The translations under genes were made by a program, and so were the position numbers. 33,737 nucleotides of DNA from Microcaldota archaeon (GTDB lineage Archaea > Micrarchaeota > Micrarchaeia > Micrarchaeales > CABMGC01), in contig JAJYYF010000010.1 of assembly GCA_021801225.1 (NCBI GenBank), positions 1-33,737 of the forward strand, in the 5' to 3' direction. The notes under the pieces were generated by a model. That model saw only the letters and a program-made list of their open reading frames with translations, did no database searches and was not told where the DNA came from. Positions 6,678-20,090 of this stretch are shown piece after piece (position 1 is the stretch's first letter; each line of letters opens with the position of its first letter).

Positions 6678-7787
6678 ATGTTAATAGAAATATTCTCTGT
6701 AGGTGCAATAGATGCACTAGTACCAGTTTTAATAATAGTTATATTTATTGGTGCAGCAGCAGGGATAAGCAGAGGCTTTAGTTTTTTCAATCTATTTGGA
6801 GTAGGTACCTTGATGGGGATGGGTCCAAAAGCTAAAGGATCTTTAGCACAAAAAACCTTCAAAAAGTCCTATACTAAACCCTCTCAAAAACCATTAAAAG
6901 TAAAAAAGACCAAATTTGAAGATGAAAAAGAAAATAAAGATAAACAAATTAGAAATGATTTTAATAGATACTTCAACAAAGGCACAACAGCCGCAACTAT
7001 AGATACAAGTGGTCCAGAACCAAAGGGAGCAAGTCAATTAAATGAACCTGATAAAAAATCTTCAAGTATATTTGTAAATGCTTTTGAGAAATCACTAATT
7101 TTAACATCACCCTTAGTTAGAGGAACATACGGAGCTGGGAAAGGTTTTGTAAATTTAGTTGCTAAAAAAGGTAGACTTAAAAAATTAGCCGGAGTGGTAT
7201 ATAAATATGATGAGGAGACCTTCAAAATAAAGAAAAATGGAGAAGAGAAAAACTTCGCAAGATATACTAATAGAGGTTATAATACCCTTCTAGAAGAAAA
7301 TATGTTTGGTTTGGCAGTAGCAAGAAGAGAAGTTTTAAAAGAAAAGCAAAAAATAATAAATGACAAAAAACTTTCACAGATTAAAAAGAAACTTCTACTT
7401 GCAAATCTTGCTGGTCTTGATCGTGTTTTTTCAAAAAGACTTGAAAATTTAGAAAATTCTTTTGATAAAATAAATAAGTTACAAGACTCTTATACTAAAA
7501 AATTATTGAGTTTAAGAACAATTCAAGATGAAAAGATTAAAGAGGAAAAACGACAAAAAATAATCGATGAAACTTATAATGAGTTTGCAAAAATATACAC
7601 AAAATCGTTCAACACCACTAGTGATTATAGGGCAGAGGATTTAATAAATAACATTCAACAAATTACTAATAAGAGATATGGTAAGTTTACATTTAATCTT
7701 AGAGTAGGAGGTAAAGATCCGAATGAAAAGTCTAAAGATTACCGCACACTTATAGAGTTCAATCTAGGTAGAAAAGAAGAAAAATAA
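6678..7787 (+). CDS. Membrane-anchored basic protein, first gene of the secretion-like cluster
   Basis: I do not recognise this 369-residue protein. One membrane helix lies at about residues 12-33 (VLIIVIFIGAAAGISRG), followed by a long soluble part that is Lys-rich and charged (pI clearly basic), with a strongly helical, probably coiled-coil stretch at about 210-320. With a short N-terminal outside segment the bulk would be cytoplasmic. It opens the cluster: it is 63 bp downstream of tRNA-His and 16 bp upstream of the first of six polytopic proteins. A cytoplasmic scaffold or assembly factor for the membrane complex would fit, but this is only context. Confidence 0.85.
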   Translation: MLIEIFSVGAIDALVPVLIIVIFIGAAAGISRGFSFFNLFGVGTLMGMGPKAKGSLAQKTFKKSYTKPSQKPLKVKKTKFEDEKENKDKQIRNDFNRYFNKGTTAATIDTSGPEPKGASQLNEPDKKSSSIFVNAFEKSLILTSPLVRGTYGAGKGFVNLVAKKGRLKKLAGVVYKYDEETFKIKKNGEEKNFARYTNRGYNTLLEENMFGLAVARREVLKEKQKIINDKKLSQIKKKLLLANLAGLDRVFSKRLENLENSFDKINKLQDSYTKKLLSLRTIQDEKIKEEKRQKIIDETYNEFAKIYTKSFNTTSDYRAEDLINNIQQITNKRYGKFTFNLRVGGKDPNEKSKDYRTLIEFNLGRKEEK

Positions 7788-7803: not shown

Positions 7804-9051
7804 ATGCAAAAAATGAAAACATTTCGTATATCTGTCCTTTTAACCTTATTATTATTTGGAATTTCATATGCGGCACCAGTTCTTTGCAACTCCAATCTGT
7901 TAAATACTAATCTCTATTCAGAAATTGCATACTTTTCAAATTATTCTATTAATGTTGCAATTTCATTTTCATTATTTGCAATATTGACATCATTTTTCTT
8001 TATAGCAGTTATTTATATAATAAATAAAGTATTTCCAGAAGCACGTTTGGGTTCATTTATAAATAACGAGTACAAAGAAATAGTAAAATCAATACTAATA
8101 ATAATTATAATTTATGGTTCATTAGCATTTTTTAGTGGTGTTGCAGTTTCATTAACCGGAGCTTCAGTAGGTACCTTCTCTACAAGTTTAGGAAATCTTC
8201 TTTATAACAGCGAAGTTTATTTATGTGGTACAAATAATATCTTAACAACAGGTACCGAAAATCTGATAAGTGTTGCATTAGCTGATGGGTTATTAAAAGG
8301 ATTAACAATAAGTTGGGGAGGTCTTCCAATACCTCCGGTTCCTCTTCCCGGAATCGGAGCATTTCTTCCTGTAGTAAAATCAGGTGTAGAATTTAATTTA
8401 CTAACTAATAATATATTTCAAACAGACTTCGTATCAGGAACTCAATTTGTAACCTCAGTAATGAACGATATCTTTAACAATGTGATATTTCCAGCAGTTA
8501 ATTTAATAACTGTTCAAATAAGTATACTACCTATCTTTGAAATTATAGGTTTATGGTTCTTAATACCACTGGGCTTGATATTCCGTGCACTTCCATTTAT
8601 TAGAGGAATTGGTGGAACATTAATCGCATTAGGGATAGGGATAGCTATAATATGGCCAGCGACTCTTGTATTATTTAATATACCTGTATCTAACTTTTTT
8701 TATGGTTATCTCTCACTTCATGGAGAAACACCTACTTCAGCATGTAGTTCATTAGGCTTATTATCAACAATATGTTCTGGCCTCTCAGAGTATTCATATT
8801 TTTCTCCATCAATTGCTTTAACAAGTTCTGCAGTTTCTAGTATAACTCCATTTTCAATAGCATTATCCTCTTTGTCTTCAATATATCCTGGGCTGAATTA
8901 TATACTACAAAATACCTTATACATAATACTTCAGGTTTTCATACTTTTCATATTTGATTTAATAATAGCCTATACAATTACGGAAAACATAGCAAAAACA
9001 TTAGGAGGATCTTTAGATCTCTCTTTAACTAATAGATTGAAGTTGTTTTAA
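7804..9051 (+). CDS. Polytopic membrane protein, paralog 1 of 6 (VirB6/TrbL/CedA-like by context)
   Basis: 415 residues with a probable signal peptide (1-23, ending SYAA), then several membrane helices (about 48-72, 95-118, 225-260, 268-292, 365-390). The shared motif of the six neighbours lies at residues 261-285: R-A-x3-I-R-x2-G-G-x-L-I-A ... W-P. Cysteines C28 and C141 lie in outside loops. No enzymatic motif is visible. Polytopic proteins next to a VirB4-type ATPase usually form the inner-membrane channel of type IV secretion systems, which is the inferred role. The next gene starts on the last base of the TAA stop. Confidence 0.88.
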   Translation: MQKMKTFRISVLLTLLLFGISYAAPVLCNSNLLNTNLYSEIAYFSNYSINVAISFSLFAILTSFFFIAVIYIINKVFPEARLGSFINNEYKEIVKSILIIIIIYGSLAFFSGVAVSLTGASVGTFSTSLGNLLYNSEVYLCGTNNILTTGTENLISVALADGLLKGLTISWGGLPIPPVPLPGIGAFLPVVKSGVEFNLLTNNIFQTDFVSGTQFVTSVMNDIFNNVIFPAVNLITVQISILPIFEIIGLWFLIPLGLIFRALPFIRGIGGTLIALGIGIAIIWPATLVLFNIPVSNFFYGYLSLHGETPTSACSSLGLLSTICSGLSEYSYFSPSIALTSSAVSSITPFSIALSSLSSIYPGLNYILQNTLYIILQVFILFIFDLIIAYTITENIAKTLGGSLDLSLTNRLKLF

Positions 9052-10301
9052 TGATACCACTCTTATTCGCAGTACAATCAACGGCATGCAATCTGGGCAA
9101 TATTAATGCTAACAATTGGATTGGAATAAATGGATTGGTAATCATAGCAATGTTTTGTGTTGGTGCATTAATTTACAGTTTAAGCTCTCTACTACCTATA
9201 CAAACAGGTAAGAAGATAAAAGGAAATGTTATTTATGAATTAAGTGAAGGAATAATAAGTCTAATAATACTTCTTTCTTTAATCTCATTAGTATATGCAT
9301 CATGTTCTGTAGGTTCAACTCTATCTGGACAAAGTAATTATCAAAATATTTTTCAAGCAGATGAATATTATGTTGGTAACTTACTTTTTGTTAAAGGAAC
9401 TTCATTAGTTACCCAACTCAGTTTCCAAGGAATTGCAGTAGCAATAGATGGAAACATAGTCACATTAATTCTAGGAAAAGTTACAGGCGCTTTAAACAAG
9501 AATTTAGGCAGCGGAAATAGTTTATTTAATCTAGGTAACTCCGGTTCAAGTTCTTCTGGTTCTACGGGAGCAGCTCAAATAGGTTCACAAGGAAGTACTA
9601 CAAATCCAACAGTTGGCTTCAGCGTGACTCTTGCTACTTCATCAGATGTTGAAGGATTATTTGATAGTTATGCTGGAACATATGCAACTTATGGAGCAGG
9701 AGTGGTAGTTACATTTGGTTTACTTTTTGTTCTTTATCTTTTACTTCCAATAATAACTGCATTAGCCTTTACTCTTGTTGTCCCTATATCCCTAATATTA
9801 AGATCCTTTGGATTTTTAGGTCATGGCTTACGATCAATATCAAATACTTTGCTTGCTTTAGCAATTGCTTTTTATATTGTTTTTCCCTTAACAATAAGTA
9901 TGAATGCATTTATAGTTAATTGGATGTACTGCAGTAATGGCGTTACAGTTTGTAATCCTTATACAATATACACTGGAAACTATAAAATTGCTACAATACC
10001 TATAGGTTCACTTTTTAAACAAAATACAGTTAACTTTTTAAATTATGGAGGATTTTCTTTATCACTTCCAACAAATTTCTATAGTTCTTTGGCTACTAAT
10101 GGGGGAGGTGTAGGGCAAACGGTGAAAAATCTTTTAGAAGGTATAGTCACATTACCTAATCAAGTTGCAGGTGTCTCAACAGAAATATCTGAGTACTTTT
10201 TTGAAGGGGTTTTATTAGTTGCAATTGATTTAATGATAACTCTTGCATTTGCTCAAGGCCTTACAAAAGCATTTGAACAAATACCACATTTAATAAATTA
10301 A
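9051..10301 (+). CDS. Polytopic membrane protein, paralog 2 of 6
   Basis: 416 residues. Helices at about 26-48 and 66-85, then a large outside region containing a Ser/Gly-rich stretch (about 152-185), helices at about 215-280 and a final one near 385-405. The shared motif is R251 to P279 with four extra residues between the two arginine positions (RSFGFLGHGL, then RSISNTLLALAIA). Unlike paralog 1 it has no classical signal peptide, but a short hydrophobic N-terminus. ATG overlaps the previous stop (TAATG), so translation is probably coupled and fixed stoichiometry is possible. Confidence 0.87.
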   Translation: MIPLLFAVQSTACNLGNINANNWIGINGLVIIAMFCVGALIYSLSSLLPIQTGKKIKGNVIYELSEGIISLIILLSLISLVYASCSVGSTLSGQSNYQNIFQADEYYVGNLLFVKGTSLVTQLSFQGIAVAIDGNIVTLILGKVTGALNKNLGSGNSLFNLGNSGSSSSGSTGAAQIGSQGSTTNPTVGFSVTLATSSDVEGLFDSYAGTYATYGAGVVVTFGLLFVLYLLLPIITALAFTLVVPISLILRSFGFLGHGLRSISNTLLALAIAFYIVFPLTISMNAFIVNWMYCSNGVTVCNPYTIYTGNYKIATIPIGSLFKQNTVNFLNYGGFSLSLPTNFYSSLATNGGGVGQTVKNLLEGIVTLPNQVAGVSTEISEYFFEGVLLVAIDLMITLAFAQGLTKAFEQIPHLIN

Positions 10302-10319
10302 ATGAAATAAGAAGATATT

Positions 10320-11762
10320 ATGGATAAAAAAATAAATTTAAAGATTTCAAGAATTCTTTTAAGTTTACTTTTAATCTTTTTAACATTTAATTTAGCTTCA
10401 TCCGCAACAACAAATACTTATAATCTAGAAACTCCTGTATCACAATTTCAATCATGGTTCCCAATTATAACACTTGCAGTTATAGCGAGTTTTTCAGTAG
10501 TTATACTCTATTTTGTATTGGGCTATGTACTTAATAACAAAAACATGATTAGCGGAGCAAAATTAGAAATGCAAAAGGTTTTGTTTACAATTGTTGTAAT
10601 GGTCATAATTATTTTATTATTAAATTATGTTGGAACTGCAGAGTACTCAACTAATTTAATATCAAAAAGCTCAATACAAACAATATGTAATCAATTAAAT
10701 AATCCAAATACTGATAACTCACTTGCATTTGTTGATTCTGCAGAAAGTGTTAACTCCCCAACTTATAATATCTGTTCAGGTTTGATAGCTAATGCAGGAG
10801 GTAAAAGTATAACTACAAATTTAGATTACGGACTTGCAGCTACTTATGTAATACTATCAAATCTTACAAATCAAGCGGCTAATAATCTAAACGCAATTTA
10901 TGTTTATAGAACTTACGTAGGTTTTCTGTCCAACTTCAAGGCTACTGACGGTTTGTGTTTTCCACAAGTAACCTGTTTGTTAGGAGGTGAGGGAGCATCA
11001 TTTAGCGTAGAGTATGGTTATGATCCATTTGCAGGATACAATCCATTAATTACTCGTTCTACAGAGTTTGTTTCAAATCAATCTACATTAATATTTTATC
11101 TTTTCATAATTCAACTTCTCTTTATACTGCTGGTAATTTATGGTTGGCCATACCTTCTAGCTGCAGGATTAATCTTAAGTGCATCTACTCTTACAAGAAA
11201 AGCAGGTGGTTTTCTAATAGCATTTGCAATTTCTGCATTAATAATATTTCCAATAATTTATCTGATGGAGTATACTGCATTTACCTCAAATACTTTATCT
11301 CCAATAGGTGCTTCATCCTTACCTTCTTTATCATTAACCGGAGAAACATTTAACTCAAAAATAATACACTATGATGCAACAGGATCAAACTTTTTTGTAT
11401 TTCCAAATGCTACGTATGTTCTTAATTACGATGGTTGTTGGCCGCATGGAGGATTAATAGCGCAAGAGTTACTAGTTGTTGGTGCTTATAGTGTACCAGT
11501 TTACGGCCTTGTTCTCGGAGTTGTAAATATATTAGGTACTGTAGGAAATAACCCTATTAGCGTTCCAATACCTTTCTTTAATTGCAATCCATCTAATGCA
11601 ATAAACTCAATCTTTGACCTAATGAATCTTTATGGAATTATGTCAGTTATTGGTTTAATATTTCCATTATTAAATATATTTATAGGGATTACGGCAACAA
11701 TAGGGATCTCACAATTATTGGGTGGAACAACAAATATACTGGGATTAAATAAATTATTATAG
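10320..11762 (+). CDS. Polytopic membrane protein, paralog 3 of 6 (longest)
   Basis: 480 residues. A hydrophobic N-terminal segment (about 10-29) is followed by helices near 50-70 and 85-102, an outside domain with several Cys (for example TICNQLNN, LCFPQVTCLLGG), helices near 258-315 and the C-terminal pair. The shared motif is present at about residues 285-310 (STLTRKAGGFLIAFAISA), but its first arginine is replaced by Ser. The C-terminal outside loop has further Cys (GCWPHGG, FFNCNPSN), suggesting disulfide-stabilised outside parts. It ends at the base before the TTG of paralog 4. Confidence 0.87.
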   Translation: MDKKINLKISRILLSLLLIFLTFNLASSATTNTYNLETPVSQFQSWFPIITLAVIASFSVVILYFVLGYVLNNKNMISGAKLEMQKVLFTIVVMVIIILLLNYVGTAEYSTNLISKSSIQTICNQLNNPNTDNSLAFVDSAESVNSPTYNICSGLIANAGGKSITTNLDYGLAATYVILSNLTNQAANNLNAIYVYRTYVGFLSNFKATDGLCFPQVTCLLGGEGASFSVEYGYDPFAGYNPLITRSTEFVSNQSTLIFYLFIIQLLFILLVIYGWPYLLAAGLILSASTLTRKAGGFLIAFAISALIIFPIIYLMEYTAFTSNTLSPIGASSLPSLSLTGETFNSKIIHYDATGSNFFVFPNATYVLNYDGCWPHGGLIAQELLVVGAYSVPVYGLVLGVVNILGTVGNNPISVPIPFFNCNPSNAINSIFDLMNLYGIMSVIGLIFPLLNIFIGITATIGISQLLGGTTNILGLNKLL

Positions 11763-13010
11763 TTGAAATATATGTTAAGGAAAAAGATTTTATTGTTTTT
11801 TTTCATTTCAATGTTAGTTCTAGGTTTATCCGGCGCCTCACAAACTTACTGTAGCGATCTTTTCAATAATGTTCATGGAATTGTAAGCAATACAGTTTAC
11901 AATTTATCAACATTTAATGCTTTAATATCATTTACTGGTTTAATAATAATAGCTGTATTAATAACTATGTCGTTAATCTACGGTTTAGGGGTAGCTTTAG
12001 GTCTAGACAGCTTCAAACAATTTGCAAAAACAGAGTATATAGAATCCTTTGTTAACCTATTAATCTTGTTGTTTGTTGTAGGAACAATTTTTACATCAAG
12101 CGGTTCAATTTTATTTATTTCTAACTTAACATCTTCAGTTATACCTTCACAATCTGCATCAATAAATACTAATTTAATATCCCCTAATGCTCCTTCGAGT
12201 GGTATAAAAGGGGTATACATACTTACCTGTAATAATATTCTTAATGTACAAATACTCACCGGAATCACTATTTTAATAGGAACTTATTTAGAACTTATTC
12301 TTTATCAAATTCTTTCAGGTTTATCAATACAATTTAGTTTCTCAGGTACACACTCATTTTCACTAGGAAATCTTATACCTAGCTTTTCAATTACTCCATT
12401 TGCAGGATTAGGAATAACACAGGCATTTATTTATAATGAATTTTCAGCATTAAGTGCTTTTATAGGTGTAAGCATAGGTGCAGTAGTTCTACTTTTTGTA
12501 ATATACTTTCTATTTCCAATATTTTTCTTTGTTGGAATTTTATTCAGATCATTTCCATGGACAAGAGCAGCCGGTGGCTCATTAATAGCCTTATTTATAA
12601 CATTCTTCATAATATTTCCTTCAATACTCTCAGTATTTACATTTTCAGGAGCATCTAACATCTTATCTAATGTGAACTCTTTATGTTCAACTTCAAACTC
12701 TGTAAGTCCGGGTAAAAGTTCTTGTTTTTCATCAAATGGCCTTAATTTAGTTTCATTTGCACAACAATATGGTTTAGGTTATTTATCAGGAACCTCTCCA
12801 GGATCCTTTATCGCAGGATTCTTATTTAAAAATGGGTTTTCATTTAGCTCTAATATTTCTCTATACTCAGAAGAGGTTTCATTTTATGTAATCATGCTTT
12901 TAGGTTTATTTATATCATTTCTTATATCGTATGATGTGCTTGGTGTATTAACAAGCATTTTAGGTTCGCCATCATTTAGTGCGAAGAGCATATTAGGAAA
13001 GATTGTATGA
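11763..13010 (+). CDS. Polytopic membrane protein, paralog 4 of 6
   Basis: 415 residues from TTG 11763, or 412 from ATG 11772; upstream bases do not decide. A signal-like segment (about 5-24) is followed by helices near 52-75, 95-112, 165-185, 225-260 and 268-295, and a C-terminal helix near 375-395. The shared motif is the most regular copy: FRSFPWTRAAGGSLIALFIT at about residues 261-280, ending at IIFP. Paired Cys occur in the outside loop before the last helix (SLCSTSNS, KSSCFSS). The TGA overlaps the next ATG (ATGA). Confidence 0.87.
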   Translation: MKYMLRKKILLFFFISMLVLGLSGASQTYCSDLFNNVHGIVSNTVYNLSTFNALISFTGLIIIAVLITMSLIYGLGVALGLDSFKQFAKTEYIESFVNLLILLFVVGTIFTSSGSILFISNLTSSVIPSQSASINTNLISPNAPSSGIKGVYILTCNNILNVQILTGITILIGTYLELILYQILSGLSIQFSFSGTHSFSLGNLIPSFSITPFAGLGITQAFIYNEFSALSAFIGVSIGAVVLLFVIYFLFPIFFFVGILFRSFPWTRAAGGSLIALFITFFIIFPSILSVFTFSGASNILSNVNSLCSTSNSVSPGKSSCFSSNGLNLVSFAQQYGLGYLSGTSPGSFIAGFLFKNGFSFSSNISLYSEEVSFYVIMLLGLFISFLISYDVLGVLTSILGSPSFSAKSILGKIV

Positions 13011-14119
13011 CATTATTAATTCAAAATATAATGGTATTTGTCGTAAACAGCTGTATAAGTAGTGTTAACTACTTTTTAACATCTCCATATACAACTTGGT
13101 TTCCAGTTGTAACCTTAGCAGTTCTTGCCAGTTTCACAATTTTAATAATAATTTATTCATTATCTACAATAATAAATGCCGGAAAAGTAAGAAGTTGGAT
13201 AAAAAATAAGTTTCTAGATTTATTCATTACCCTTATTCTTATAATGTCATTTGGAACTATATCTACCTTGATATGTGCAAGTAATCCTACTCCTTACTTC
13301 TCAAAAGCAGGTCTATTACCAAATAACTGTAATGTATCCTCAGTAAATGACATATACTCCCTTTCTTTATGTGATTTAAATCAATTCAATACATATACTC
13401 TTCAATTCAATCAATATCTTTACTTTTTACTTTTACTATTTTCAATAACTCCTAAAGTTTCAGGTACTTTATCAATAGGCTTAAATGGTCAAAATGGAAT
13501 AGCCGGTATAAATCCAAAGCTATCCGCTCAAACCGGCGCTGTAGATCTTGATCCATTTGGAAAAATAAATAAGTTTGATGGCTTTATACTTCCTGCACTA
13601 TATGCATTAACATTATTGAATGAAGTAGAGTTACTTTTACTGGCATCATCACCATTACTTTTTGCCATATTTATTGCAATAGGTTTAATTGCACGTTCAT
13701 TTGAGATCACTAGAACCTTTGGTAATGGTATGATAGCCTTTGCAATAGGTATAGGCTTCATCTTTCCAATAATAGTTAGTCTTAATTATGGTTTTATGGA
13801 TTACAGTGTACAAAATTCTTTGACATTAGGATTGGGTTCCTCAGTTTCTGGGATAACTCCTACACTACTACCTGTAGCTAATCCTGTTGTAGTATTTATT
13901 TCAGCGGCAATTGGTTTTGCAACAGGAAGTGGTTCTCCATTAGGTCAAGCTGCCACCTTATTACCAGAATATTTATTTTCATACTTAGGCTTGATAGTTG
14001 TAGGAATAACCATAATACCCTTGCTTACCTTTACTATAGTCACATCATTTGTTTCTGATTTTTCAGGAGCTCTGGGTGAAAAATTTGATTTAGGAAATCT
14101 TCTAATAAACTTACTGTGA
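13007..14119 (+). CDS. Polytopic membrane protein, paralog 5 of 6
   Basis: 370 residues, one of the two shorter copies. Helices near 33-55, 68-86, 130-148, 205-228, 235-258 and 325-350. Motif at about residues 229-254: ARSFEITRTFGNGMIAFAIG, ending IFP, with the second Gly of the GG pair changed to Asn. An N-terminal segment around the phrase YTTWFPVVTLAVLASFTI resembles SQFQSWFPIITLAVIASFSV in paralog 3 (near-identical register), a second region of common descent. Coupled to paralog 4 by ATGA overlap. Confidence 0.87.
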   Translation: MTLLIQNIMVFVVNSCISSVNYFLTSPYTTWFPVVTLAVLASFTILIIIYSLSTIINAGKVRSWIKNKFLDLFITLILIMSFGTISTLICASNPTPYFSKAGLLPNNCNVSSVNDIYSLSLCDLNQFNTYTLQFNQYLYFLLLLFSITPKVSGTLSIGLNGQNGIAGINPKLSAQTGAVDLDPFGKINKFDGFILPALYALTLLNEVELLLLASSPLLFAIFIAIGLIARSFEITRTFGNGMIAFAIGIGFIFPIIVSLNYGFMDYSVQNSLTLGLGSSVSGITPTLLPVANPVVVFISAAIGFATGSGSPLGQAATLLPEYLFSYLGLIVVGITIIPLLTFTIVTSFVSDFSGALGEKFDLGNLLINLL

Positions 14120-14125
14120 TTAAAT

Positions 14126-15214
14126 ATGAAGAAAAAGTTAATATTTATTATTTCAATTCTTGTTTTGTTATTGCAAGTAAGTTTTATCTACTCCGCAACA
14201 ACTACCTCACAACAATACTGCAGTTCACAAAGTTTAATAAATCAAAATGCTCCATGGTACTGTAATCAAATAAATCAAGCTATGGTGTCATACTGGGAAA
14301 AGTGGAGTCCTATAGCATATCTGGCGCTTTTTGTATCTTTCGATATTGCTTTGGTTATTTATTTAGCAAGTGTTTTATTAGGAAATGATAAACTTAAGAA
14401 CATCGCATACTCTGAATTTTATGAAGCCATAGCAACAGGCCTTATAGTTATAGGCTTTTTATCCTTAAGTGCAACAATTTTAGGATTAGGTCCATCATTA
14501 ATCGTAAATGCAAATCCATACATTACCTCTCTTTCCTATATAAATAACACAATTGCATCTACAAAAGCAGTTGTATTGCAACTATTTACTATATCACAAA
14601 AAGATTATGTATATACTAAAACCTCCTTGGGATTCTGTGTCTCAACTACAGTTAGTTCTTATTGTGTATCAAATGTCGTTGGTGTATTTAGTTTTGCAAT
14701 AAATTATTTATTCATAATACCTGCCTCTACCTTAATATCATTTCTCATGGATGGTCTAACTCTTCTTTACGGTGAGTTTTATCTAATACTACTATTCATG
14801 TATGCAGCAATACCTGTATTTTTAATTCCTGGGATAATTCTAAGGGCTATTTTACCTACAAGATCTCTCGGAGGCCTAATGATAGCTATAGCAATAGGTT
14901 TTTACATCATACTGCCAACTTTATTCTCTGTAGCATTTTACTTTACAAATACTAGTTTGATAAATCAATTTAACTCTCAAAGTTCATTTTTGTCAACACA
15001 CTCCTCAGGAGGAGATGCACAGTTAAATGCAGCTTATCAAACTTCTCCTTTAGTTACTGAGTTGAATCTAGCTCAACAAGGATTAGGTTCATTTTGGGTA
15101 TCTGTATTGTTCTATCCGATACTCATATTTGCTATGACTTATGCGATAATAACTCAACTCGCACAGTTCCTAGGAGGGGCAATTAAATCTTCTTCAAGAT
15201 TAAAAATAATATAA
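14126..15214 (+). CDS. Polytopic membrane protein, paralog 6 of 6
   Basis: 362 residues. Signal-like N-terminus (1-22, ending YSATT), then helices near 58-82, 95-118, 190-212, 218-240, 245-270 and 328-350. Motif at about residues 238-263: LRAILPTRSLGGLMIAIAIG, ending ILP. The segment KWSPIAYLALFVSFDIALVI corresponds to the WFP-x3-LAV-x-ASF region of paralogs 3 and 5. GTGATT precedes the ATG. An 84-bp AT-rich gap with a TATA-like element follows, so the six paralogs plus the first gene may be one transcription unit. Confidence 0.87.
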   Translation: MKKKLIFIISILVLLLQVSFIYSATTTSQQYCSSQSLINQNAPWYCNQINQAMVSYWEKWSPIAYLALFVSFDIALVIYLASVLLGNDKLKNIAYSEFYEAIATGLIVIGFLSLSATILGLGPSLIVNANPYITSLSYINNTIASTKAVVLQLFTISQKDYVYTKTSLGFCVSTTVSSYCVSNVVGVFSFAINYLFIIPASTLISFLMDGLTLLYGEFYLILLFMYAAIPVFLIPGIILRAILPTRSLGGLMIAIAIGFYIILPTLFSVAFYFTNTSLINQFNSQSSFLSTHSSGGDAQLNAAYQTSPLVTELNLAQQGLGSFWVSVLFYPILIFAMTYAIITQLAQFLGGAIKSSSRLKII

Positions 15215-15262: not shown

Positions 15263-15307
15263 ATATTTTCTGTTTTATCTATATTATCATATAATAGGTT
15301 GTTAAAT

Positions 15308-16138
15308 TTGGCTATAAAAACTAATATTCTTATTTTTACAATCTTTATCTCAATAAGCGTTTTGTTTGCAGTGGGCACATTAGTCAGTACAAACCCTGCA
15401 TTAACAATTTTATTTTCAATAATTGCTTTATTTTTTTCAGTTCTAGGTTTTTCTACACGATTTTATACTTATTTATACATTCCATTATTTAGATCTAGAA
15501 AAAGAAATATAGTTTTAAGTAATCAGGAGGCATTTTTATTATCACCTTCTGGAAATACAATAATTATAAACGACTCTGTAGGAACATACGCTACTGCATT
15601 TGTTAAAATACCACTTTATAGATCTTCTACAGAAATGACCGAATCTGAAAAGTTAGATTTAGGGCGAACATTTAGTAGGGTACTTACATTAACTAAAGAA
15701 ACAACTAAGTTCTCATCAGAGATGTATGTTGTAAACAAAGACGAATACATAAACAAAGTAAGAGCGAAACTACAAAATAGCTCAGAAAAATTAAGAGAAA
15801 TGCAATCCTCTGAGCCTTCTAACTCTGAAAAATTAAATCGTTTAAAAGGCGAACTTACAATGTGGGAGAACTTAATATCAAACATTAGTAGTTCTAGATC
15901 CGAGTCATTAGTTACTTATAATATGGTAAGTGCTTTTGGTCAAAACGAAGAGGAAGCTTCTAGCATAGCCTATCAAAAAGCAGAAGAAATAGCTGCAGGA
16001 ATAAGTGCAGCTTTAGGTGTAACTGCATATATTGCAGAAGGAGAAGAGCTGTTATCTTTAATAGAACCAAATTATATGATACCTGTAGAAACAGTTAATG
16101 AAATAATAAGACAAAAAAGTATAAAAGAGGGAATATAG
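15308..16138 (+). CDS. Membrane-anchored VirB4 N-terminal-domain-like protein, copy 1
   Basis: 276 residues: two close membrane helices (about 5-27 and 31-53) followed by a soluble alpha/beta domain of about 210 residues with a helical insertion (about 150-190). This order resembles the PrgI-type two-helix module plus the N-terminal domain of VirB4/TraC ATPases, but no ATP-binding motif is present. It shares architecture and segments with the next gene: the strand YATAFVKIPLY after the helices, a charged helical insertion in the middle, and a C-terminal GEELLSLIEPNYMIP. I prefer TTG 15308, with AGGTTG as binding site, over TTG 15299. The assignment to VirB4 rests on fold pattern and neighbourhood. 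Confidence 0.8.
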   Translation: MAIKTNILIFTIFISISVLFAVGTLVSTNPALTILFSIIALFFSVLGFSTRFYTYLYIPLFRSRKRNIVLSNQEAFLLSPSGNTIIINDSVGTYATAFVKIPLYRSSTEMTESEKLDLGRTFSRVLTLTKETTKFSSEMYVVNKDEYINKVRAKLQNSSEKLREMQSSEPSNSEKLNRLKGELTMWENLISNISSSRSESLVTYNMVSAFGQNEEEASSIAYQKAEEIAAGISAALGVTAYIAEGEELLSLIEPNYMIPVETVNEIIRQKSIKEGI

Positions 16139-16145
16139 GGATAAA

Positions 16146-16973
16146 ATGGATGAACAAACAGTGATGTATTTAGGTGTATCTGCAATAACACCATTTGTAC
16201 TTTTAGTTTCTGCATCTAGTTTAGGTCCTTTAGGGATAATTATAGATGTATTTGCATTAATCGCAGTGGCTTTAATACTAATGCTAAATTACGCAGACTT
16301 TCTTATATTTCCAGCTGTAACAAAACTCTTAGGTATAAAAATACAATTATCAAAAGAACATTATTGTTTAAAGGAACAAAACGCCATATTGAAGTATACT
16401 GGAGGTATTTATTATGCAACAGGGTACTTGACGGCTAACATATACAATTATGTTTTCAATGCAGAGTCATCAAATCCTAACTCAGACGATGATCAAATCT
16501 CTTTAGCTCCGGAAAAGTGGGAACGAATACTTATGAATGTTGATTTTCCATTTAAATTCAATGTAATAACAGATGCAAAAGATGTTCAAAAATACAGAGA
16601 AGATTTAGAAGGTGAACGTGGTTTCCTAGAGTTCCAATTATCTAGAGAATCAAACTCATCAAATCCAAATCAAATGACATTAACTGAGTTAGAAAGAAAA
16701 ATAAATGTTACACAAGCAAAAATAGATAAAATGTCTTCTGGAGAGCTGCCTTTAAATACAATTATGTATATAGAAACTACTGCGGTAGGTATAAGCGAAA
16801 AAGATGCGGTAGATTCACTTACTAATCAATTAAATAGACTAGAAACAGTATTTCATACATTTGATGTAAACATTCTAAGAGTAGTCGGCAGAGAGATACA
16901 TACCCTATACAAATTAAATTATCTTTTATATGAACCACAATTAATTGAAAAGTTATTCAATCATCAAAAATAA
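16146..16973 (+). CDS. Membrane-anchored VirB4 N-terminal-domain-like protein, copy 2
   Basis: 275 residues: two N-terminal membrane helices (about 7-27 and 30-55), then a soluble domain. The segment LTELERKINVTQAKIDKMSS followed by GELPLNTIMYIETTAVGISEKDA is typical in style of VirB4 N-terminal domains, where a helical hairpin precedes a strand and a second helix. The end (VVGREIHTLYKLNYLLYEPQ) parallels the end of copy 1, so the two are tandem duplicates that have diverged far. GGGAT lies before the ATG. No nucleotide-binding motif is present. Probably a membrane collar to which the separate ATPase binds. Confidence 0.8.
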   Translation: MDEQTVMYLGVSAITPFVLLVSASSLGPLGIIIDVFALIAVALILMLNYADFLIFPAVTKLLGIKIQLSKEHYCLKEQNAILKYTGGIYYATGYLTANIYNYVFNAESSNPNSDDDQISLAPEKWERILMNVDFPFKFNVITDAKDVQKYREDLEGERGFLEFQLSRESNSSNPNQMTLTELERKINVTQAKIDKMSSGELPLNTIMYIETTAVGISEKDAVDSLTNQLNRLETVFHTFDVNILRVVGREIHTLYKLNYLLYEPQLIEKLFNHQK

Positions 16974-17028
16974 TCATATAAAATACTACTAATTTAAATA
17001 ATATTATCATTAATTATAATTGATAACA

Positions 17029-18537
17029 ATGACGCTTTTACGTATTCAAACACTAATGAGTAATGAGATATCAAAGCGTATATTCATCACTAGACCTCCT
17101 GAACCTCCATCAGAATTTTTATTTAATGATCCTACAAATTCAATCTTTATAGGAACAAGTAAAATTTTCAAAGTTCCCTTTACATGGACCTTCTCAAATA
17201 TAACTAATCCGCACATATCAGTTGTAGGTATAACCGGAGCAGGAAAGAGTTTTTTTGTAAAAACATTCATAACGAGGGCTAGTTATGTTTGGAATACAAA
17301 TGCAATAATAATCGATTGGGCAGGAGAGTACATTTCATGGGTAAAACAAAGTGGTGGAAAGGTAATTGCTTTATCTAAAGGGGATTACCTAAATATAATG
17401 GATCTTTCAGGCATGAAACCTTTAGACAGAACAAAACAAATAATGAACTCATTGGATATACTTACAGATATCTCAACGTACCCTGAGCAAAGAAGACTCA
17501 CCTCAGAAGCTATCGAGCAAGCTTACTTGAATCTCGGTTTTCCATTAGCCTCACCCCCGCCACCAGGAAAAGAACCACCAACGCTAAAAGATGTATCCAA
17601 ACTTCTAGACGAAAAACTACAAGAGGGGACTTATGAATATCCAGCAGAGCTTGAAAATGCAATATACCGTTTAAGACAGTTTTCCCGTGAAGGAGAGGAT
17701 TACTTTGCCAATAAAAGCACAATAGATATAGGTAAACTTACTACCTCTGGTTTAGTGGATCTAGATTTATCTAGCCTTCCTGATGAAAGATTCAGAGCAA
17801 TGGCTGCTTTGTTCATACTTCAAACATTAAAGGAAAAGATGCGTCTTGAAAGCTGGAGTTCGTCTGCAGGACTTAAAACCTTGGTTGTTTTAGATGAAGC
17901 CTGGAAGGTAGCTAGCGATGAAAGAAGCGATGCTGTTACGATTATAAGAGAAGGTAGAAAGTATAGCTTCGGTTTAATTGTAGCTTCACAAAACCCTACT
18001 GATGTAAATGAAGCAATCTTCTCAAATGTAGGAACAACTTTCATGCTTAGAATACGTTTTGAAAAGTTTATGAATTATCTACAAGGGTCATTAAACTTTT
18101 CTGATTTTATAAGAAATGAGATAAGCAAATTAGGTGTCGGTCAAGCAGCAATAGATATGGCATTTAATACTGGAGTAAGATTCCCTAATATATTTTTAGT
18201 TGATAAAATAGTCGGAGAGCTGCCTTTAGATACCTACTCTTTATTTATTTCAGATATCTTGTCTGAAAAGGAGCTTTCTGATCCAGAAATTAAAAAAGAG
18301 TATTCCTTGGATAAAATGTCGATAAATTCACGTTTAATTGAGTTGGGTTTTGGTTCAGAGGTAATAACCAAATTGCTTAGTTACATGAATGAAAAAGGAA
18401 GAACTTTAGATATTAGAGATTTTATTAAGACAGCTATGTCTTATGGAGTTAATAAAGATACACTTATATCATTCATGCGTTCAATAGGAATTAGTGATTC
18501 AATAATCTTAAAAATAATGTCTTATATAGTTGTGTGA
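17029..18537 (+). CDS. VirB4/HerA-type ATPase lacking the VirB4 N-terminal domain
   Basis: 502 residues from ATG 17029 (TTGAT upstream; TTG 17020 is the alternative). It is the motor of the cluster: Walker A GITGAGKS at 67-74, IIIDWAGEY at about 94-102, Walker B LVVLDEAW at 285-292 and the sensor-like ASQNP at 319-323, the order seen in VirB4/TraC and HerA hexameric ATPases. It has only about 60 residues before Walker A, whereas VirB4 normally carries 200 or more; the missing part seems to be supplied by the two preceding genes. Residues 435-497 form a C-terminal helical domain repeated in the next gene. No membrane helices. Expected to act as a ring at the cytoplasmic face, driving transport or assembly. 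Confidence 0.92.
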   Translation: MTLLRIQTLMSNEISKRIFITRPPEPPSEFLFNDPTNSIFIGTSKIFKVPFTWTFSNITNPHISVVGITGAGKSFFVKTFITRASYVWNTNAIIIDWAGEYISWVKQSGGKVIALSKGDYLNIMDLSGMKPLDRTKQIMNSLDILTDISTYPEQRRLTSEAIEQAYLNLGFPLASPPPPGKEPPTLKDVSKLLDEKLQEGTYEYPAELENAIYRLRQFSREGEDYFANKSTIDIGKLTTSGLVDLDLSSLPDERFRAMAALFILQTLKEKMRLESWSSSAGLKTLVVLDEAWKVASDERSDAVTIIREGRKYSFGLIVASQNPTDVNEAIFSNVGTTFMLRIRFEKFMNYLQGSLNFSDFIRNEISKLGVGQAAIDMAFNTGVRFPNIFLVDKIVGELPLDTYSLFISDILSEKELSDPEIKKEYSLDKMSINSRLIELGFGSEVITKLLSYMNEKGRTLDIRDFIKTAMSYGVNKDTLISFMRSIGISDSIILKIMSYIVV

Positions 18538-18541
18538 TTAT

Positions 18542-18838
18542 TTGCAAAAGACATTTGTAATAAGTAAAATAGATATTAAAAAGATGCTTTCTCCTTTAGG
18601 GATAAGCCCTGGGAGCATAGAAGCAATGTTAAGTATAATGGATAAATCACATAAACATGTAGATGCGATTGCATTTGTTGGTATGTTACAAAAATTAGGA
18701 TTAAGTCTAAATAAAATAGAAAACATTTTAAGAAGAATAGGAATTGATGACACTAGAATAATAGAGATATTTAACTCTTTAGACGAGGAAAAAATAGAAG
18801 CAACCTTCGGAAAAGTTGTTGATTTAAAAATTGAATAA
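18542..18838 (+). CDS. Free-standing copy of the ATPase C-terminal helical domain
   Basis: 98 residues starting at TTG 18542, preceded by GTGTGATT that overlaps the ATPase stop codon. Residues 15-77 align without a gap to residues 435-497 of the preceding ATPase: 17 of 63 positions are identical, including LG near the start, D27/F31 of the aligned block, and a shared RxIGI-x-D followed by I-x2-I near the end. The domain is all-helical in appearance with no catalytic motif. It may cap, regulate or extend the ATPase ring by copying its docking domain. I know no name for it. Confidence 0.78.
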   Translation: MQKTFVISKIDIKKMLSPLGISPGSIEAMLSIMDKSHKHVDAIAFVGMLQKLGLSLNKIENILRRIGIDDTRIIEIFNSLDEEKIEATFGKVVDLKIE

Positions 18839-18864: not shown

Positions 18865-19317
18865 ATGGCAAAATCAAAATTAAATTCAAAGTCAAATATG
18901 AAAGACAGGAAAACATACTGCATAATGTGTGGAAAAGAAAAAAATGGGATAGAGATAAAAATAGATAACGTCATAAAAACAATAAGGTATATAAAGAAAA
19001 AAATATTCCACACCGAAAGGAATAATAGACTGGTCGTCTGCGAAGAATGTTACCAAACATATGCAAAAAATAGAAAAAGATTTGTTTCACGACAACGTCT
19101 TTACATAGGTCTTGGTGTTGTTTTTCTTATCTTTTCAGTATTTCTAGCCCCTAACGTCGGTTCATTTATAATAGGGTTAGTAATTTTATTGTTACTTTAT
19201 ATATTATCATTTCTTAATTACACTCCTGAGTTATCAATTTCGATTACAAATGATAAAAATAAGCTATCAAAGTTCTTAAACACTCATAATAAAAAGGAAT
19301 TAAAAAATAATACTTGA
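18865..19317 (+). CDS. Zinc-ribbon protein with two membrane helices
   Basis: 150 residues. C19, C22, C59 and C62 (CIMC ... CEEC) form a probable zinc ribbon with a very basic loop between the knuckles (IKTIRYIKKKIFHTERNNR). Two membrane helices follow at about 79-94 and 99-117, then a basic polar tail. The zinc domain would be cytoplasmic and could touch nucleic acid or the ATPase. I do not recognise the family. It lies between the ATPase tail-domain gene and the coiled-coil gene, in the same direction. Confidence 0.75.
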   Translation: MAKSKLNSKSNMKDRKTYCIMCGKEKNGIEIKIDNVIKTIRYIKKKIFHTERNNRLVVCEECYQTYAKNRKRFVSRQRLYIGLGVVFLIFSVFLAPNVGSFIIGLVILLLLYILSFLNYTPELSISITNDKNKLSKFLNTHNKKELKNNT

Positions 19318-19364: not shown

Positions 19365-20090
19365 TTGGCCGAAGAAGTTATAATAACTCCAAAAGTTGAA
19401 AAAATAGAGATTACTGCTAAACTTAACGGTACACTTAACGAGATAGCCGCTAATGCATCAAAATTACCTTTTTACTCAGTATCTACTGCAGAGGACTCAA
19501 TATCCATAGGTATGGTCGAAAGTAGAAATATAAGAAAACAACCGTATCTTTTCTACATTTTTGAAATACGAGCCGATAAAGTTTCAATAATTTACTCAAT
19601 ACCTAACGACATAAGTGAAAGTATGCGTCGTGCTTTCGTTCTAAGAAATTTTTCATCATTTTTAGCTGGAATATCTAATATATACGAAGTATCACAACAA
19701 GAACTTATGCAGTATGTTGATTCGACTATAGATAAATTACTTTCAGGTCTATCTCAAAACTATAGTTCATTATTCAACAAATATGAATCATTACTTACCG
19801 AGTACAGAGCTACAAAGAGACTTAACATAGAACTTTCAGCATCAAACAGAAACTTAACATTAGAAACATCAGAATTAACAGAGGATAATAAAAAACTAAG
19901 ATTAGAACTTGACAGACTACAAAAGTACTCTGATGAATCACTAATGTCAATGGTAGAAGATTGGATAACTGTACATGGGAGTAGTATAGACGTTGATGAG
20001 TTTGCCAAGACCTATAATCTAACTTCTCCAAGAGTAGAGGATATATTAAATAAAATGGTTTCCAAAGGTTATATTGAGTTGAGGGGTTAA
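19365..20090 (+). CDS. Coiled-coil protein with C-terminal winged helix
   Basis: 241 residues from TTG 19365 (GTGG upstream). The N-terminal 130 residues look like a compact alpha/beta domain, followed by a coiled coil at about 137-190 and a C-terminal winged-helix-like domain at about 195-241, where the phrase VDEFAKTYNLTSPRVEDILNK reads as helix-turn-helix and MVSKGYIELRG as the wing. No membrane helix or signal peptide. The architecture suggests a DNA-binding or docking factor made in step with the secretion machinery. Another coiled-coil/winged-helix protein is encoded at 25277, but the two do not look alike in sequence. Confidence 0.78.
   Translation: MAEEVIITPKVEKIEITAKLNGTLNEIAANASKLPFYSVSTAEDSISIGMVESRNIRKQPYLFYIFEIRADKVSIIYSIPNDISESMRRAFVLRNFSSFLAGISNIYEVSQQELMQYVDSTIDKLLSGLSQNYSSLFNKYESLLTEYRATKRLNIELSASNRNLTLETSELTEDNKKLRLELDRLQKYSDESLMSMVEDWITVHGSSIDVDEFAKTYNLTSPRVEDILNKMVSKGYIELRG

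Follow-up and report, generated by a model that had tools for sequence, protein, structure and literature searches.

Six ordered membrane paralogs of Micrarchaeota, probable subunits of a chromosomal T4SS-like machine

Comparison with described systems

The closest described systems are the Ced and Ted DNA import machines of Sulfolobales and Thermoproteales (CedA, CedA1, CedB, CedD, CedE), which resemble the locus reported here in being archaeal, chromosomal and reduced T4SS-like, in combining a polytopic channel protein with a VirB4/HerA-type ATPase, and in having a channel protein that can be duplicated (CedA/CedE); the CedA N-terminus resembles a small two-TM pilin, a likeness that the M proteins may share (PMC9905601, PMC11868833). 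They have one or two channel paralogs, whereas six (M1 to M6) stand in order in Micrarchaeota. The M proteins have no CedA sequence match, the ATPase falls far under the CedB/CedD cut-offs, and a putative VirB4-N-like domain is encoded separately and in duplicate (B3a, B3b). Homologs of VirB3 have been stated to be absent in archaea (PMC11868833).

VirB6/TrbL of bacterial conjugative T4SS (R388 TrwI, Gram-positive CD1112) is likewise polytopic and encoded beside pilin, VirB3 and VirB4, and its conservation is strongest around a TM-cytoplasmic turn, as in the M proteins (PMC2653234). It differs in giving no detectable sequence or fold match to them, although the sequence-profile test was without power. 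Several VirB6 paralogs occur in the host-dependent lineages of Rickettsia (RvhB6a-e) and Anaplasma (VirB6-1 to -4), but these are bacterial and diderm, number four or five copies with large extensions, and are not known to form position-locked hexads. The T4SS of Patescibacteria, whose cells are ultrasmall and host-dependent, is near-universal and chromosomal, lacks a recognised relaxase and comprises a VirB2/B3/B4/B6 set; it differs in having a VirB4 of the bacterial MPF-FATA clade and a separate VirB3, and the portion of the published account drawn on here describes no six-fold VirB6 array (PMC12102498). No published description of an ordered six-paralog array was found in the literature searched.

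Six membrane paralogs and their shared motif

The window, that is, the whole 33,737-nucleotide stretch analysed, carries six M genes, the ORFs of which were confirmed between 7804 and 15214; neighbours overlap or all but abut. Assignments are based on ORF, ortholog profile, hhalign and tree, with an AF2 model in addition for M6, and the VirB6/CedA-like label is putative throughout.

7804..9051, + strand: M1, candidate VirB6/CedA-like paralog, position 1
8584..8628, + strand: M1 motif RALPFIRGIGGTLIA (R261, R267; span R261-A275); both Arg in 36/36 orthologs
9051..10301, + strand: M2, candidate VirB6/CedA-like paralog, position 2
9801..9857, + strand: M2 motif with 4 extra residues, RSFGFLGHGLRSISNTLLA (R251-A269); both Arg in 44/44 orthologs
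10320..11762, + strand: M3, candidate VirB6/CedA-like paralog, position 3
11178..11222, + strand: M3 motif SASTLTRKAGGFLIA (S287-A301; Ser at the first Arg site); orthologs have R in 43/51 and S in 4/51 at the first site, R in 50/51 at the second
11763..13010, + strand: M4, candidate VirB6/CedA-like paralog, position 4; starting with TTG, or with the ATG at 11772
12546..12590, + strand: M4 motif RSFPWTRAAGGSLIA (R262-A276); Arg in 53/53 and 52/53 orthologs
13007..14119, + strand: M5, candidate VirB6/CedA-like paralog, position 5
13694..13738, + strand: M5 motif RSFEITRTFGNGMIA (R230-A244); first Arg in 53/57 orthologs, second in 50/57 with Lys in the other 7
14126..15214, + strand: M6, candidate VirB6/CedA-like paralog, position 6
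14843..14887, + strand: M6 motif RAILPTRSLGGLMIA (R240-A254); both Arg in 60/60 orthologs

An earlier note, made from the DNA alone, had taken these proteins to be paralogs on the strength of a common arginine-containing motif. Both points were borne out. All 15 profile pairs among the six ortholog families aligned with hhalign probabilities of 96.5-99.5% (E 7e-10 to 3e-23 over 202-356 columns), as against 3.3% or less between M profiles and five other operon proteins, mostly membrane proteins, which excludes a similarity of the kind expected for any hydrophobic helices. Identity between positions is about 20%, the outer loops differ strongly in length, and Smith-Waterman z values of M pairs relative to locally shuffled sequence were 1.8-11. 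The motif was located in all six copies; a strict regular expression matched four of the six proteins and a looser one five, compared with 0.0 and 0.0008 matches per six proteins in locally shuffled controls. Both arginines are near-invariant in each positional ortholog group across Micrarchaeota.

The peculiarities reported for single copies were also found. Ser287 replaces the first Arg in copy 3 and GN stands in the motif of copy 5, both being local traits (Arg in 43 of the 51 copy 3 orthologs; consensus GG for copy 5). Orthologs of copy 2 in the window's taxonomic order share its four extra residues, which are missing in family f11 (RVFPFLRKAGAFLIA).

Orthology by position, copy number and order

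Whether each position is orthologous across genomes, a check proposed in the earlier note, was answered in the affirmative by phylogeny, in which the proteins formed six clades by position with support of 99-100. At all 37 loci with a single best match for each of the six, M1 to M6 occur in the order of the window, and none of 60 loci had M genes out of order. Outside the window's taxonomic order, exactly six M genes were counted in 12/12 arrays, read in families f3, f5, f6, f14, f19 and f21 at two arrays per genome. A tree of 111 proteins grouped them by position and not by genome; it needed 7 label changes, as against a minimum of 6 and 73.8 after shuffling. From the exact count of six in distant arrays and this grouping it follows that the hexad, with its order, is old and is duplicated as a block. 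Some high-quality genomes of families f10, f13, f15, f17 and f22 gave no match.

Membrane topology

The placing of the two arginines within a membrane segment, also proposed in the earlier note, did not hold, as they are sited in a turn of about nine residues between two TM helices. In the AlphaFold2 model of copy 6, helix 186-241 is joined to helix 246-293 by a turn at R240-R246. Per 100 residues, Lys and Arg together number 22 in the motif turn, 14-18 in the two remaining cytoplasmic stretches and at most 2 in the outer loops, which by the positive-inside rule puts the RxxxxxR turn on the cytoplasmic side. Of the two functions suggested for the arginines, an ATPase contact is plausible, since a conserved cytoplasmic turn beside a VirB4-type ATPase is an expected contact place; a pore constriction is less likely, the arginines lying in a cytoplasmic turn and not inside the membrane.

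The operon around the array

The array belongs to an operon of fixed order, M1-M6-B3a-B3b-ATPase-C18-Z-H-X786. A further gene, N0, lies upstream of M1 in the window and between M6 and B3a in other species.

6678..7787, + strand: N0, conserved N-terminal hydrophobic segment (GxINALIPIIIILILLVAAAGLxRG) and variable basic tail
15299..16138, + strand: B3a, two-TM anchor and putative VirB4-N-like domain, paralog of B3b (hhalign 97.6% with B3b, 98.7% with B30 of the compact locus)
16146..16973, + strand: B3b, two-TM anchor and putative VirB4-N-like domain (AF2 pLDDT 83; PDB fold search)
17020..18537, + strand: ATPase of the VirB4/CedB/CedD/HerA group (Pfam DUF87, AAA_10 and P-loop_TraG over cut-off)
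18530..18838, + strand: C18, helical, with likeness to the ATPase's C-terminal tail; in the same operon
18865..19317, + strand: Z, small membrane protein, the N-terminal half of which has four Cys; in the same operon
19365..20090, + strand: H, coiled-coil protein, winged-helix-like at its C-terminus; in the same operon
20257..22617, + strand: X786, predicted to have two TM segments and a large outer domain; operon member phylum-wide

The five best PDB fold matches of the B3b model were all R388 TrwK/VirB4 chains (probability 0.80-0.98, with E values of only 0.014-0.25); sequence comparison of B3a and B3b with PrgI and VirB4 gave no signal. The best NCBIfam models for the ATPase were CedD (2e-20), CD1110 VirB4 (1e-17) and CedB (5e-17), all below equivalog cut-offs. 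Measured against the curated cut-offs, none of which was reached, the ATPase scored 61.9 of 700 bits for CedB, 72.8 of 600 bits for CedD, 59 of 800 bits for HerA_Thermprot and 52 of 970 bits for helicase_HerA.

Compact locus and pilins

The same genome holds a compact locus with a VirB2-like pilin, one M protein (M0, RSFYPTRKLGGFLIA), one B3-like protein (B30) and an ATPase. The order pilin, M, B3-like, ATPase was seen in 19/19 such loci, and 55 of 60 relatives match the compact-locus M, mostly with the compact-locus ortholog. Compact M is homologous to the window's M proteins (97-99.5%), as is B30 to the window's B3 (98.7%). The Gram-positive plasmid gene order Maff2, VirB6, hypothetical, PrgI, VirB4 equals that of the compact locus, with Maff2, in our reading, as the pilin equivalent.

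Pilin homologs were identified in 59/60 relatives and in 37/37 good relatives, and in many genomes compact and expanded loci alike have VirB2/TrbC-type pilins beside them; those of the window's genome lie on another contig (G000:C28). The pilins of the alignment matched Pfam TrbC with a best E of 3e-8 and T4SS_pilin in 7/9 members, while the compact-locus pilin of the window's genome reached TrbC at E 0.03 only. The best PDB sequence match of the pilins was TrwL/VirB2 (E 0.02).

Searches for family identity

Pfam and NCBIfam scans of the six M proteins and 92 relatives gave no consistent family. TrbL PF04610 had no match at E<=0.1 in the genome and none among 92 M proteins; Ced_CedA NF041796 had none at E<=1 in the genome, the Sulfolobus acidocaldarius control being detected. 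A PDB profile search yielded no match of M proteins to VirB6, TrbL or CedA, and Foldseek comparison of the M6 model with PDB and viral models returned nothing significant; a phage 'TrbL' at rank 40 (E 1.2) was set aside. Profile comparison with pNOB8 proteins gave no signal, nor did comparison of M profiles with R388-type and CD1112 VirB6 sets, which was without power, as its positive control, CD1112 with R388, also failed (1.1%). The single relaxase family searched, PF03432, was without match, and VirD4/T4CP PF02534 gave one match (E 0.003) below cut-off. By eye only, the VirB6 pattern P-x10-T-[KR]-x13-Y resembles the M motif.

Proposed machine and alternatives

The operon very probably encodes a T4SS-like machine. 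Six non-equivalent subunits of a single assembly are the best explanation for a six-copy array of fixed order that groups by position and is duplicated en bloc. On balance we favour the explanation in which the six are VirB6/CedA-like subunits of a chromosomal T4SS-like machine that co-assemble into one platform; co-assembly taken by itself is similarly probable, and the VirB6 identity is something we infer.

M1 to M6 would be polytopic subunits of a vertically inherited, chromosomal conjugation/Ced-type machine of Micrarchaeota, which would also contain the VirB4/CedB/CedD-type ATPase, two VirB3/VirB4-N-like adaptors (B3a, B3b) that tether this ATPase to the membrane, and VirB2-like pilins, the genes of which lie nearby or elsewhere. 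The six ordered, non-interchangeable paralogs would most likely form one hetero-oligomeric inner-membrane platform, plausibly with a single copy of each arranged as a pseudo-sixfold ring over the ATPase hexamer. Since R388 VirB6 forms a homopentamer (PMC9259494), six is not the expected ring number and we can only infer a six-membered ring; one of each is a tentative proposal, slightly short of an even chance. The cytoplasmic RxxxxxR turn may be the part that docks on the VirB3/VirB4-N domains, or may form the lining of the entry. Macromolecules (DNA or protein) might be passed to or from another cell, probably a host or sister cell; we hold transfer between cells to be evenly poised, and the docking role, substrate and direction given here are presumptive.

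Alternatively, M1 to M6 could be VirB6/CedA-like T4SS paralogs that share one ATPase but form several channels, separate or alternative, each serving a different substrate, partner cell or growth state. The high divergence between positions (~20% identity) and the very unequal outer loops would fit such channels, as would the divergent VirB6 paralogs of Rickettsia (five) and Anaplasma, the roles of which are unclear (PMC2653234; PMC7648143), and Sulfolobales CedE, a CedA paralog with a partly separate export role (PMC11868833). Number and order would then be expected to vary; instead there are six in the same order in 12/12 distant and 37/37 close arrays, duplication is by whole hexad and not by single gene, and the M genes overlap or nearly abut. 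We consider separate channels unlikely, though deserving of some weight.

It is less probable still that the operon is a HerA/FtsK-like ATPase-driven machine other than a T4SS, such as a surface-protein exporter, with superficial likeness to VirB4 and pilins. The ATPase does score similarly with HerA models (NCBIfam HerA 3e-16; PADLOC HerA 4e-20) and none of the membrane proteins hits a named family, but in many genomes VirB2/TrbC-type pilins stand beside compact and expanded loci, the genes of the compact locus follow the conjugation order pilin, channel, VirB3-like, VirB4, the best PDB folds of B3b are VirB4, and CedD, VirB4 and CedB are the best ATPase models. A defence reading via the PADLOC HerA matches was rejected in view of the pilins, the VirB4-type context and a near-universal presence with fixed phylum-wide order.

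For the favoured T4SS-like platform, the replacement of the usual single channel gene by six related genes in fixed order suggests a channel of six different, non-interchangeable subunits. A single-gene T4SS-type channel may have become an obligate ordered hetero-hexamer before the radiation of most Micrarchaeota families, the full hexad being later duplicated as a unit in several orders, so that a genome would carry a single-subunit system alongside one or two systems of six subunits; we put this forward with some reserve, somewhat below even. If the explanation is true, a conserved machine for secretion or DNA exchange has been kept by most genomes of Micrarchaeota, whose cells are small and host-associated, much as a T4SS is now seen in most Patescibacteria, and it would give a direct handle on material exchange between Micrarchaeota and hosts. 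We know of no other T4SS-type channel with six distinct, position-locked subunits; this would be the first, and a test of how homo-oligomeric pores become obligate hetero-oligomers, for which the single-subunit paralogous system in the same genome offers an internal comparison.

Possible pilin-like N-termini of the M proteins

A second block, WFPxxxLAVxASF, noticed earlier in copies 3 and 5 and more weakly in copy 6, is real; it opens the second hydrophobic helix, which is where the alignment with the VirB2-like pilins falls. The CedA N-terminus resembles its pilin CedA1 (PMC9905601). By hhalign, M2 aligned with the pilins at 57% and the other positions at 1-37%, while hmmsearch matched the N-termini of M2 and M5 with the pilins at 2e-6 to 4e-4.

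Gene organization

The window is a 33.7-kb contig from a Micrarchaeota genome of ~0.96 Mb, in which a ribosomal-protein operon and tRNA-His are followed by the cluster listed here.

6678-7787: N0 family; conserved hydrophobic N-terminus, then an Ala/Arg/Lys-rich tail that varies widely (294-811 aa)
7804-15214 (+): M1-M6, six nearly gapless ORFs that overlap by 1 or 4 bases or stand 0-18 bases apart
15299-16138 and 16146-16973: B3a and B3b, each with a pair of TM segments at the N-terminus
17020-18537: ATPase
18530-18838: C18, resembling the helical tail at the C-terminus of the preceding ATPase
20257-22617: X786, two predicted TM segments with an asparagine-rich part of ~500 aa between them

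The array, then B3a, B3b, the ATPase, C18, Z, H and X786, is an order kept across the Micrarchaeota loci; in a minority of loci of the window's own order (e.g. L050, L100) the M array stands apart from B3a. The N0 gene lies 5' of M1 in the window; other species have it after M6 and before B3a. C18 looks like a second copy of the ATPase tail, encoded as a gene in its own right.

Paralogy of the M proteins

The earlier note had proposed that a shared arginine-glycine motif marks the six membrane proteins as paralogs. The RxxxxxR..GG.LIA block was recovered in 6/6 ORFs, with exactly the deviations described there (first Arg lost in copy 3, GN in copy 5, four extra residues in copy 2), and essentially never arose in locally shuffled sequences. 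Orthologs of each ORF were gathered from 80 Micrarchaeota loci and the six families compared as profiles. All 15 pairs were homologous (probability 96.5-99.5%, E 7e-10 to 3e-23), which bears out the proposed paralogy, while comparisons with other operon proteins (N0, B3a, B3b, X786, Z) did not exceed 3.3%.

Retention of the two motif arginines among orthologs
M1: first Arg 36/36, second Arg 36/36
M2: first Arg 44/44, second Arg 44/44
M3: first Arg 43/51, second Arg 50/51
M4: first Arg 53/53, second Arg 52/53
M5: first Arg 53/57, second Arg 50/57 (remainder Lys)
M6: first Arg 60/60, second Arg 60/60

The deviating residues of the window, Ser in copy 3 and Asn in copy 5, are recent, local changes. 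Within a broader set of 111 M proteins the first arginine was kept in 108 and the second in 109 (Lys in two), and a proline 18 residues after the second was present in every one.

These arginines had been placed within a membrane segment, which proved wrong. In an AlphaFold2 model of M6 built from 52 orthologs (mean pLDDT 82.6) both lie at a turn between two long helices, and this turn is assigned to the cytoplasm by the positive-inside rule, since it carries 22 K/R per 100 residues, compared with 18 for the loop that follows TM2, 14 for the C-terminal tail and at most 2 for the outer loops. It is a fair guess that the turn contacts cytoplasmic partners.

Ordered arrays of six

M1-M6 occurred in the window order in all 37 loci where each of the six had one single best hit, and of the 60 loci with any M gene none departed from it. 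The trees were quick ones, with SH-aLRT support only. In a 90-protein tree each position formed a single clade (support 99-100), so that orthology by position was upheld. A combined M profile had matches in 91 of the 98 high-quality Micrarchaeota genomes, usually 7-9 in the window's two families (six, the single M protein M0 of a second locus, and split matches) and 12-18 in most others. Twelve arrays, picked for having their hits on one contig, contained exactly six tandem M genes each; they represent two arrays in each of six genomes (f3, f5, f6, f14, f19, f21), genomes outside the named loci being drafts. Family f11 has a single array of six adjoining B3a/B3b/ATPase.

In a 111-protein tree the M genes of all families clustered by array position together with window M1-M6, requiring 7 label changes against a minimum of 6 (shuffled labels, 74). 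Positions 3 and 5 were single clades (support 97-99), position 2 was one group with weak support (75), and positions 1, 4 and 6 needed one extra change each, their deep forks having low support. This grouping indicates that the ordered hexad predates these families and that duplication involved complete hexads, not single genes.

ATPase, B3 proteins and pilins

The ATPase, found in 59/60 relatives and as a full-length copy of at least 61% identity in the window's order, matched DUF87, AAA_10 and P-loop_TraG; its best NCBIfam models were CedD, VirB4 CD1110 and CedB, all far below equivalog cut-offs. In the B3b model (pLDDT 83) two TM helices are joined to a soluble domain; the top five PDB matches of this domain were all R388 TrwK/VirB4 chains (prob 0.80-0.98). 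B3a is a paralog of B3b (97.6% in profile comparison). A VirB4 N-terminal-like domain thus seems to be encoded on its own here, as a membrane-anchored protein with two gene copies, as judged from fold rank, the E-values (0.014-0.25) being weak.

Small proteins with a signal and two TM segments, encoded on the flanks of the ATPase cluster in other families, match VirB2/TrbC pilins (best TrbC E 3e-8; T4SS_pilin in 7/9). A profile of these detected pilins in 59/60 relatives, as a rule 12-14 kb 5' of the ATPase and immediately before M1; a second kind lies 2 kb 5' of another, shorter ATPase. The latter arrangement, the compact locus, is on another contig of the window's genome.

G000:C28:21507-24824 (L166:6508-9825): pilin, one M protein (RSFYPTRKLGGFLIA), one B3-like protein and a 373-aa VirB4/HerA-type ATPase

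This gene order was identical in all 19 loci read. The M protein found a match in 55/60 relatives, mostly clear orthologs, and is homologous to all six window M proteins (97.2-99.5%); the B3-like protein is homologous to both B3a and B3b (98.7%). The locus is Ced-like. A 739-aa HerA_C/DUF87 ATPase, possibly of the coupling type, is encoded a few genes downstream (L166:11484-13703).

Possible relationship to VirB6 and Ced, and proposed assembly

The M proteins are called VirB6/CedA-like mainly because the compact-locus order matches that of a Gram-positive conjugative plasmid (Maff2, VirB6, hypothetical, PrgI/VirB3, VirB4), and also on the grounds of topology and of an N-terminus that moderately resembles the pilin, a resemblance also reported between CedA and CedA1 (PMC9905601). 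Sequence models, profile comparisons and fold comparisons revealed no direct homology to VirB6 or CedA; the VirB6 profile result carries no weight against homology, since two accepted VirB6 families also failed to link. No relaxase (PF03432) was found and the VirD4 match was weak.

The constant count of six, the fixed order and the duplication of whole arrays suggest that each M product would have a place of its own in a single assembly, like the subunits of other complexes in which a homo-oligomer has turned into an obligate hetero-oligomer. A six-membered platform would match the symmetry of the VirB4-type ATPase ring, which in known systems is built on six central subunits (PMC12857230). 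Against this, R388 VirB6 (PMC9259494) and DotA are pentamers. Co-assembly of M1-M6 in some form is considered reasonably probable, and a one-of-each ring of six tentative, at slightly under even chances.

Micrarchaeota are generally regarded as host-associated, and Ced is a DNA importer. For these reasons, and because T4SS genes of Patescibacteria are required for epibiotic growth (PMC12102498), transfer between cells would by analogy be the likeliest role of the machine. Several VirB6 paralogs are already known in Rickettsiales, with five in Rickettsia (PMC2653234). Among open-access papers joining Micrarchaeota/DPANN with VirB4, VirB6, T4SS or Ced, no description of the six-M system was found, the sole match being a VirB4-bearing giant protein of Nanohaloarchaea (PMC10266531).

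Accessory proteins

X786 has no Pfam match; its place behind the ATPase cluster is constant across the phylum, and it is a candidate partner of the machine at the surface. In three genomes from other orders the second hexad is immediately followed by giant proteins with one TM segment (1366-1640 aa), candidate surface proteins (L249:224-4519, L251:10673-15595, L253:12750-16850). In two genomes long ORFs near the M array have a pilin domain fused into them (L172:3313-5211; L170:229-4083, L171): one protein of 632 aa shows repeated pilin matches (9 TM segments), and others of up to 1284 aa contain a pilin-like domain.
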